56,915 nt of DNA from a virus: the IMG/VR virus record IMGVR_UViG_3300007735_000758, positions 1 through 56,915 of that record. One strand, written 5' to 3'. This document shows, piece by piece, positions 17,324-19,368 of the stretch. The notes beneath the pieces are model-generated. The model was given only the letters and a program-made list of their open reading frames with translations, made no database searches and was not told the DNA's origin. Numbering within the stretch: the first letter of the stretch is position 1; each line of letters opens with the position of its first letter. The translations under genes and the position numbers were made by a program.

Positions 17324-17430
17324 ATTGCAAAAAATTGAAGCTGCGGCTAGATGCCGTGGATGTGTTGATGGAGAAGAAGGAGGAAGCGCAGCGGGTGATG
17401 GGTGGACTGCGGGAGGGGAAATGTGGCTGA
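17308..17430 (+). CDS. Short charged protein, GTG start
   Basis: A 40-aa predicted protein with GTG start 17308, preceded by AAGGAG at a good distance. Sequence VQEELDCKKLKLRLDAVDVL then MEKKEEAQRVMGGL is a single charged helix. The coding frame is open over the end of the zinc-ribbon gene and runs 8 nt into the methyltransferase start region. It may serve as translational coupler for the methyltransferase; function unknown. Confidence 0.4.
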   Translation: MQEELDCKKLKLRLDAVDVLMEKKEEAQRVMGGLREGKCG

Positions 17431-18428
17431 GAATACCTACATCTCACTGTTCTCCGGCTACGGAGGACTCGACCTCGCCGTCCGACGCGCTTTGCCAGAG
17501 GCTCGCTGTGTCTGCTACGTGGAGAGGGAAACTCCTGCGGCCGCAATCCTGGCGTCTCGCATGGAAGACGGAGGGCTGGAGGACGCGCCTATCTGGTCTG
17601 ACATTGTCACCTTCCCAAGCCGACTGTTTCGTGGCCGCGTGGCTGGACTCGTTGGCGGGTTCCCCTGCCAGGACCTCAGCGTTGCAGGGCGACAAGCCGG
17701 AATCGAGGGAGAGCGAAGCGGATTGTTTTTTGAGATCGTCCGACTCGTTCGCGAGTTGGAGTCCGTCGAGTGGCTCTTTCTTGAGAACGTCCCGCCAGTT
17801 CTCAATTTTCCAGCAGGAACAACCGTTCTTGGAGAACTTGCCGCGCTCGGGTTCGATGCGGAATGGGGAACTTTACGAGCGTCCGATGTTGGTGGATCGC
17901 ACCGGCGAGAGCGGGCGTTTGTGCTGGCTTACCGCACGGGCCGAGGACTCGGAAAGCTGCGGGAATCATCCGGGGGCGGTGGATTTATTAACGGAGGGGC
18001 AGACGATGCACAGGCCGACACCCCGCACGATCACGGGCGGCGCGGAATCAGCGGAGCGGAAACAGGAACTGGGCAGGACGGAGAGCGGTGGATCGGGCCT
18101 GCAATCGGCAGCCGCCAACTGGCCAACACCAACCACCCGCGACTGGAAATCCGGCGAGGCGAGCGAGGAAACGATGAACAGGAACGCAAGGCCGTTATCG
18201 GAAATCGCCTCCCACTTTTCCCTCCCGGCCCCGCCGACCTCAACGCATGGCGGCAAGTCCCCGAGTGGCTCCACCCGGCGGTTGAACCCGGACTTCGTCG
18301 ACTGGCTGATGGGGCTAATACCCGGATGGACCGACTACGCGCCGCTGGAAACGGCGTCGTACCTCTCCAGGGTGCGGTCGCTCTTGCGCTCCTACTCGGG
18401 AGGGCGCGGTAGCCGCGTAAGCCTTTAA
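17421..18428 (+). CDS. Second, coextensive reading frame inside the methyltransferase gene
   Basis: A 335-aa open frame, shifted by one base relative to the methyltransferase and spanning its whole length. ATG 17421 and the methyltransferase GTG 17423 share the bases ATGTG and one Shine-Dalgarno (GGGAGGGG). The product is Trp/Ser/Pro-rich and contains WPTPTTRDWKSG, ARPLSEIA and LNPDFVDWLMGLIPGWTD. From memory, I know these motifs from phage proteins annotated as methyltransferase-related or hypothetical. It may be a genuine overlapping gene or a long shadow frame kept open by the composition and conservation of the methyltransferase. I cannot decide without alignments. Confidence 0.4.
   Translation: MWLRIPTSHCSPATEDSTSPSDALCQRLAVSATWRGKLLRPQSWRLAWKTEGWRTRLSGLTLSPSQADCFVAAWLDSLAGSPARTSALQGDKPESRESEADCFLRSSDSFASWSPSSGSFLRTSRQFSIFQQEQPFLENLPRSGSMRNGELYERPMLVDRTGESGRLCWLTARAEDSESCGNHPGAVDLLTEGQTMHRPTPRTITGGAESAERKQELGRTESGGSGLQSAAANWPTPTTRDWKSGEASEETMNRNARPLSEIASHFSLPAPPTSTHGGKSPSGSTRRLNPDFVDWLMGLIPGWTDYAPLETASYLSRVRSLLRSYSGGRGSRVSL
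17423..18412 (+). CDS. DNA (cytosine-5) methyltransferase
   Basis: A 329-aa enzyme with the ordered C5 motifs: I (ISLFSGYGGLDLA, from residue 7, SAM binding), IV (GGFPCQDLSVAGR, catalytic Cys about 82), VI (FLENV, about 120), VIII (SHRRERAFVLAY, about 158) and X (RAAGNGVVPLQGAVAL near the end). The target-recognition region is about 170-260. It methylates C5 of cytosine in phage DNA, most simply protecting against host restriction. GTG 17423 is preferred because it places motif I close to the N-terminus and follows GGGAGGGG; an in-frame GTG at 17402 is also possible. The same bases encode another long frame. Confidence 0.88.
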   Translation: MAENTYISLFSGYGGLDLAVRRALPEARCVCYVERETPAAAILASRMEDGGLEDAPIWSDIVTFPSRLFRGRVAGLVGGFPCQDLSVAGRQAGIEGERSGLFFEIVRLVRELESVEWLFLENVPPVLNFPAGTTVLGELAALGFDAEWGTLRASDVGGSHRRERAFVLAYRTGRGLGKLRESSGGGGFINGGADDAQADTPHDHGRRGISGAETGTGQDGERWIGPAIGSRQLANTNHPRLEIRRGERGNDEQERKAVIGNRLPLFPPGPADLNAWRQVPEWLHPAVEPGLRRLADGANTRMDRLRAAGNGVVPLQGAVALALLLGRAR

Positions 18429-18449: not shown

Positions 18450-18839
18450 ATGGATGAAAACAACCAACCTAAACCTCCTTCCTGGGAAGAGGAAATCTTT
18501 GAAAGCATTAATCCTGGCACCGAAGAAAAGAAACGCGAGTTCTTAAAGCAAGGGACAAGCTGGCTGCGCTCCGTTGCCCCTGATCCTACGGCTGATTGGA
18601 TAGGCCCACACAGTGGGCTTAACTTTGGCCCCTTGGAGTTCAAGCAAAAGCAAACTCCTCTCCCTGCGCCAGAGATTACCCCCACCTCCCTACTCTATTC
18701 CCTACAAGCATTCGATGCAATTGTACAGAAGGTCGTAGAGATAAATGCAGGTAGGTGGATCTTCCCGGAAGACGCTCCTATCCTCGTTCGCGCCGTGTTA
18801 AAAGCTATCGCAGAGGTCAACAATGCTCAACCCCGTTAA
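18450..18839 (+). CDS. Hypothetical early protein
   Basis: A 129-aa protein, acidic N-terminal half (WEEEIFESINPGTEEKKREFL) and a C-terminal helical part (LQAFDAIVQKVVEINAGRW, PILVRAVLKAIAEVNN). No recognised domain. GGAGAAAAAGA precedes the ATG. It overlaps the next gene by 17 nt. The AT-richer sequence contrasts with the GC-rich methyltransferase just before it. Confidence 0.55.
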   Translation: MDENNQPKPPSWEEEIFESINPGTEEKKREFLKQGTSWLRSVAPDPTADWIGPHSGLNFGPLEFKQKQTPLPAPEITPTSLLYSLQAFDAIVQKVVEINAGRWIFPEDAPILVRAVLKAIAEVNNAQPR

Positions 18840-19368
18840 AGACATTCACGTCCTCCCCTGTAACGACAACCAATCCCACACCGAAGGAAAAGATTGCCCC
18901 TGCAATCCAGAAGTAGAAAATCAATTTAACGGCGTCTCCCTAATTATTCACAACTACTTCATGTACCCAAAGATCAACTTCTTAATCGGGCGCACCTGCA
19001 CCCAGGTAAAGGTCATAGACATCAATTCCCAAGCCGCAACAGAACTCCCCCGGCGCGGTGACGAGATAGACGACTGCATCACCTTCACAACAGAAGACGG
19101 CACACTCACCATGCGCCATCAACAAGATTGCTGCGAAGCCGTACAAATCAAACAAATAGACGGCGACATCAACGACCTCGTCGGAACACCCATCCTCAAT
19201 GCATACTGCGAAACCAACCCCGTAGAAGATCTAGATTACGGAATAGGACAATGGACCTTCTATCGCCTCCAAACCGCTAAAGGCCCTGTCGTCATCTCTT
19301 GGTACGGAGAGTCCAACGGATACTACTCCGTAGAAGTAGACCTTATATGGACACCAAATACTCAATAG
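18823..19368 (+). CDS. DUF7448-like protein
   Basis: A 181-aa protein. The core (INFLIGRTCTQVKVID, ITFTTEDGTLTMRHQQDCCE, TFYRLQTAKGPVVISWYGESNGYYSVEVDL) matches the layout I associate with DUF7448: an ASxLIGK-like start, a short beta segment with HxxDCCE, and the ending WxGxSNGYYSxxV. Common in phages and bacteria; function unknown. It overlaps its 5' neighbour by 17 nt and its 3' neighbour by 22 nt. Confidence 0.7.
   Translation: MLNPVKDIHVLPCNDNQSHTEGKDCPCNPEVENQFNGVSLIIHNYFMYPKINFLIGRTCTQVKVIDINSQAATELPRRGDEIDDCITFTTEDGTLTMRHQQDCCEAVQIKQIDGDINDLVGTPILNAYCETNPVEDLDYGIGQWTFYRLQTAKGPVVISWYGESNGYYSVEVDLIWTPNTQ

Follow-up and report, generated by a model that had tools for sequence, protein, structure and literature searches.

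The 56,915-nucleotide window, which is the whole stretch of viral DNA analysed here and which carries tailed-phage packaging and tail genes elsewhere along its length, contains a locus that very probably encodes a two-subunit C5-cytosine methyltransferase of the M.EcoHK31I kind, with its parts interleaved across two reading frames of the same strand. The C5-cytosine methyltransferase catalytic subunit, alpha (17423..18412, + strand; GTG start; 329 aa), carries motifs I-VIII and X and is without motif IX. The recognition/motif IX subunit, beta (17421..18428, + strand; ATG start; 335 aa), is read in the +1 frame of alpha. Judged by the statistics of the sequences, this second frame is a real gene, and the pair a real and widespread dual-coding gene. 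Beyond what the initial annotation had proposed, the analysis addresses the role of beta and describes a switch of constraint between the frames along the gene.

Alpha and beta are coextensive. The two long same-strand frames, one base apart, to which the initial annotation had drawn attention are both present, from GTG 17423 to 18412 and from ATG 17421 to 18428; their stops end 16 nt apart, as it had noted, and the three motifs that it quoted from the second frame (WPTPTTRDWKSG, ARPLSEIA and LNPDFVDWLMGLIPGWTD) were all recovered in beta. Both starts lie in a shared ATGTG (17421..17425, + strand; beta ATG at 17421, alpha GTG at 17423) behind a single purine-rich GGGAGGGG (17411..17418, + strand), a putative Shine-Dalgarno for both starts whose GGAGG stands 4 nt upstream of the beta ATG and 6 nt upstream of the alpha GTG, in keeping with the earlier proposal of one start and one Shine-Dalgarno common to both frames. 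Because upstream start codons are available in both frames (GTG 17402 for alpha and TTG 17325 for beta), the shared start is a predicted one. RTGTGG is kept at the alpha/beta start position in relatives, and close relatives have either GGGAGGGG itself or a G-rich stretch 5' of it. A start offset of -2 nt with RTGTGG was counted at 34 of 147 loci, and the beta start lay within 30 nt of the alpha start at 121 of 147 when the earliest possible beta start was taken. The median beta/alpha length ratio among relatives was 0.97.

Alpha matches PF00145 (Pfam) at 1.4e-31, over profile positions 3-165 only. The Pro-Cys-Gln of motif IV, with the catalytic Cys82, lies at 17663..17671 (+ strand); P81 and C82 are invariant, and the beta frame reads SPARTSA there. 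Motif X is also in the alpha frame (RLRAAGNGVVPLQGAVALALLLG; 18335..18403, + strand) and is modelled as a helix with a pLDDT of about 93. In the AlphaFold2 model of alpha, pLDDT was >90 for most of residues 1-170, <50 at 189-262, and about 93 at 310-329. A Foldseek search with this model gave M.HaeIII (2e-13) and M.HhaI (2.5e-13) as the nearest folds. The prediction thus agrees with an ordered catalytic domain and motif X helix and with a disordered TRD stretch at 189-262.

In beta, the most conserved part is LNPxFVEWLMGxPxGWT, found in the window as RLNPDFVDWLMGLIPGWTD (18279..18335, + strand), in which LNP, WLMG and WT are near-invariant. We assign this block to motif IX, because one-piece relatives (L090, L187, L197, L021 and L023) hold the same block in the catalytic frame between motifs VIII and X, and in L187 the PF00145 match covers it. 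The motif falls in the confident part of the AlphaFold2 model of beta (residues 281-330, with a helix at 290-297); since that model is of low confidence overall (pLDDT 57.6), a TRD fold for beta remains a prediction. In the stretch from alpha motif VIII to beta motif IX, beta chains contain from 0 to 7 W.TP-type modules at a median spacing of 35 aa. Close relatives with flanks about 92% identical are wholly different in the module stretch, and the modules reappear in changed order among relatives; each such exchange must preserve both frames. By analogy with the TRDs of monomeric enzymes, we infer that the W.TP modules may set target specificity.

Family searches with beta gave matches among phage protein clusters. 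The window beta matched phrog_1008, annotated as a DNA methyltransferase, at 6.5e-22, which bears out the link that the initial annotation had drawn to methyltransferase-related phage proteins. Among 67 aligned betas, homologue families were phrog_1008 (67), phrog_27243 (65) and phrog_26627 (63); these are listed as stand-alone 'DNA methyltransferase' or as unknown, with descriptions that do not mention the overlap with alpha. Searches of beta against Pfam and NCBIfam returned no family match, the beta profile had no match among PDB sequences even at E 10, and the one-piece enzyme of Propionibacterium phage B22, used to seek an alignment of motif IX with HhaI, had no match in the PDB.

Whether beta is more than a shadow frame was assessed by recoding, by phase and by selection in both frames. 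The initial annotation had offered, as the alternative to a fully dual-coding gene, a frame kept open by high GC content and by conservation of the enzyme; GC is indeed 63%, and some of the similarity does come from shadowing, since about 54-80 bits remain after recoding. When the codons of the window alpha were permuted synonymously 20,000 times, the beta frame was stop-free in 0.6% of permutations (mean 3.5 stops), and the +2 frame of the same gene contains 9 stops, an ordinary number. Close and distant relatives keep the beta frame open: 145 of 145 were stop-free in the overlap against 4.4 expected (recoding gives 3.9 stops expected), a figure inflated by ascertainment because beta was searched for as a single open frame. 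With a profile built from nine distant betas, the window beta scored 317 bits, whereas 200 recoded versions scored 80 +/- 16 with a maximum of 115. At held-out loci, the real beta outscored every one of 20 recoded versions in 133 of 133 cases (mean 184 versus 54 bits). ORFs found with the beta profile lay over a C5-methyltransferase (alpha) ORF in 190 of 191 cases, always in the same +1 phase, and the sole exception was a one-piece enzyme with the beta C-terminal motif in its own frame; the 191 come from searches of genome and viral collections with the beta alignment only, plus earlier loci, and some loci overlap between searches. Substitutions were then counted by their effect in each frame, as uncorrected pairwise counts in which few changes fall in the SS class, itself partly saturated, giving for beta (25 pairs) NN/NS of 0.29 (CI 0.23-0.34) and SN/SS of 0.31 (0.24-0.39), versus 0.79 (0.70-0.91) and 0.85 (0.71-1.08) for control genes (51 pairs taken from these loci, with the same fake frame imposed on them). 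The confidence intervals are disjoint, so that the extra constraint beyond alpha is strong and is not seen in control genes; in the TRD, moreover, alpha synonymous sites are conserved and alpha nonsynonymous sites drift. An AntiFam-type shadow would show no constraint other than that imposed by the host gene, and beta does show additional constraint. A spurious ORF held open by GC content and methyltransferase conservation is therefore extremely unlikely, being contradicted by the two-frame selection tests, and the proposal of a fully dual-coding gene is supported by selection, phase conservation and profile scores alike.

Selection in the two frames changes along the gene in an ordered way. 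For 43 disjoint pairs, with alignment-based landmarks from methyltransferase motifs, alpha w was 0.18 from the N terminus to motif IV, 0.17 from IV to VIII, 1.05 (0.83-1.30) in the TRD, 0.70 at IX and 0.16 at X; the corresponding values for beta were 0.48, 0.54, 0.22, 0.20 and 0.48. Both frames are conserved under purifying selection, though it is weak in the N-terminal half of beta (NN/NS about 0.5). Across motifs I-VIII it is the alpha frame that is constrained; constraint then passes to the beta frame for the recognition region and motif IX and returns to alpha for motif X, so that the DNA spells one methyltransferase by two frame changes. The variable (TRD) region (17925..18275, + strand) encodes W.TP-type modules in beta and a neutral, G/R-rich linker, predicted to be disordered, in alpha. 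That the order I-VIII, TRD, IX, X is spelled exactly by this relay would also fit a single polypeptide made by two programmed frameshifts, from alpha into beta after motif VIII and back into alpha before motif X. One-piece relatives exist, and in three others (L051, L061 and L062) alpha has 4-5 stops in the TRD, yet motif X stays in the alpha frame. Of 160 loci, however, 153 have no alpha-frame stop in the TRD, where recoding of beta predicts 7.7 such loci if alpha were untranslated there; openness across a neutral stretch suggests that alpha is still translated through it, which is hard to square with a double frameshift. Beta, furthermore, has its own start beside that of alpha and is under stronger constraint over I-VIII than are the controls, and M.EcoHK31I consists of two polypeptides (PMC3404938), so that we regard the frameshift explanation as unlikely. 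Beta could alternatively be a separate protein outside the enzyme, for example a regulator or an anti-restriction factor, that overprints the methyltransferase; known methyltransferases offer nothing that corresponds to its N-terminal half, and the lack of a Pfam family match points the same way. We consider this very unlikely, given that relatives have the beta motif within the enzyme polypeptide itself, between VIII and X, and that alpha alone has neither motif IX nor a constrained TRD.

In the preferred two-subunit reading, one Shine-Dalgarno would direct ribosomes to two start codons offset by 2 nt. Alpha would fold as the AdoMet-binding catalytic domain with the motif X helix and would have a disordered linker in place of a TRD, and beta would dock via motif IX and contribute the small domain that reads DNA. 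The two together would form a cytosine methyltransferase whose target site depends mainly on the W.TP modules of beta, and the methylation would probably protect the phage genome from host restriction.

Relatives were typed by the frame of motif IX and of motif X relative to motifs I-VIII, and they include metagenome contigs, which may be mis-binned. One-piece enzymes (0,0) were found in L090 (Lentzea), L187 (Propionibacterium phage B22), L197 (phage Darolandstone), L021 and L023, and AquI-like forms (1,1) in L185 (Arissanae gp80/gp79), L191 (Streptomyces phage phiBT1), L020 and L089. The window type (1,0) was found in an E. coli prophage (L188), Vibrio, Synechococcus, Microcystis, Acinetobacter and Sphingomonas, and in about 150 more. 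On a quick, unrooted tree of the catalytic domain, 45 of 46 (1,0) forms fell on one side, which also took in L089, an AquI-like form, and two indel derivatives; the other group, mostly from actinobacterial phages, contained one-piece and AquI-like forms mixed. A simple one-gain history of the architecture finds no support, as the forms are mixed and this tree requires 4 changes of the EcoHK31I-like label. We read the distribution as suggesting repeated single-indel conversions and an old and stable (1,0) form.

Several relatives depart from these types or carry additional features. The 4-5 alpha-frame stops after motif VIII in L051, L061 and L062 are as many as expected without constraint, and motif X, in the alpha frame, lies there in a short separate ORF, making each a candidate three-piece methyltransferase. 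In L112 and L026, motifs IX and X are shifted equally relative to I-VIII with the IX-to-X offset kept, as if by one TRD indel. The phage B22 enzyme (L187:1-1764) contains an intein with a LAGLIDADG domain (Pfam) just before the PCQ motif. Marine Poseidoniaceae MAGs, which are archaeal, also include short contigs with alpha/beta pairs (L038 and L050), and these may be mis-binned viral contigs. The most inclusive reading has about an even chance of being right, namely an ancient, coextensive, same-strand dual-coding family spanning several bacterial phyla and phages, in which one enzyme fold is encoded via two frame changes with exchangeable beta recognition modules readable in both frames, and in which L051, L061 and L062 encode a three-piece enzyme.

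Lee et al. reportedly found in 1995 that the EcoHK31I beta (176 aa) is nested in another frame of alpha (309 aa), and M.EaeI is presumably of the same kind. A small subunit in another frame inside the large one is likewise what we observed, at the same +1 phase in 190 of 191 cases. A split C5-methyltransferase with motif IX in the small subunit is already known: M.EcoHK31I (YGGCCR) has two polypeptides, the larger with I-VIII and X and the smaller with IX (PMC3404938). The window large subunit also has I-VIII and X without IX, its PF00145 match ending at profile position 165, and the window small subunit also supplies motif IX. From this precedent the window locus may work like an EcoHK31I-type enzyme, the likeness being drawn from the published motif split. 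The window beta differs in being as long as alpha, with the start region shared, and in carrying the selection on the TRD (w 0.22, versus 1.05 in alpha), whereas the predicted TRD of M.EcoHK31I was placed in the larger subunit (PMC3404938). The window gene also differs in that the few neighbouring genes scanned included none recognisable as a restriction gene. M.AquI (CYCGRG), another two-subunit C5-methyltransferase, is divided in its variable region, beyond motif VIII, as is the window enzyme, but its beta holds both IX and X (PMC3404938), whereas motif X of the window enzyme is in the alpha frame. Phage methylases can also harbour an HNH endonuclease (the ShiLan domain) as a hidden second gene that is out of frame. 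These endonucleases are mobile insertions of about 200 aa (PMC11855218), whereas the second frame at the window locus spans the whole gene and is part of the enzyme. As far as we searched, in open-access text, near-complete overlap as the norm, the relay of selection between frames and exchangeable beta modules are new, as are the breadth of the family and its one-piece, AquI-like and three-piece relatives; in the open-licence literature we found no paper on the alpha/beta overlap family.

Database records of this family vary in which frame they carry. RefSeq has alpha only for an intact copy in E. coli PT62 (L188), and beta only, as a 'hypothetical protein', for Sphingomonas paeninsulae; GenBank has the beta frame only for phage Alfacinha3, named cytosine-specific methyltransferase. 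The beta frame is annotated and the catalytic alpha missed at L186:1408-2499 (hypothetical protein) and at L001:1501-2667 ('cytosine-specific methyltransferase'). In phage phiBT1 (L191:1492-2539), gp9.1, of about 166 aa, is annotated 'DNA methylase may be inactive', and a +1-frame ORF that lacks annotation (1610-2539) holds motifs IX and X. The copy in E. coli PCP07014 (L189:1500-2277) is a RefSeq pseudogene with an internal stop, in which alpha and beta are broken within a few bases of each other and are decaying together. Downstream of the window methyltransferase, positions 18823-19368 encode a DUF7448 protein (6.7e-24).

It is rare for two same-strand frames to overlap over about 330 codons and to be conserved across phyla, and the evidence put forward for such overlaps is mostly disputed; the alpha/beta overlap can be demonstrated from sequence statistics alone, with internal controls included. 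The frame relay is a clean natural example of two proteins sharing one stretch of DNA by setting structured parts of one against disordered parts of the other. Many phage, prophage and plasmid methyltransferases are mis-annotated as alpha only or beta only, and the 'missing' motifs of phiBT1 gp9.1 lie in the other frame. Target specificity becomes testable in beta, where nobody would look.
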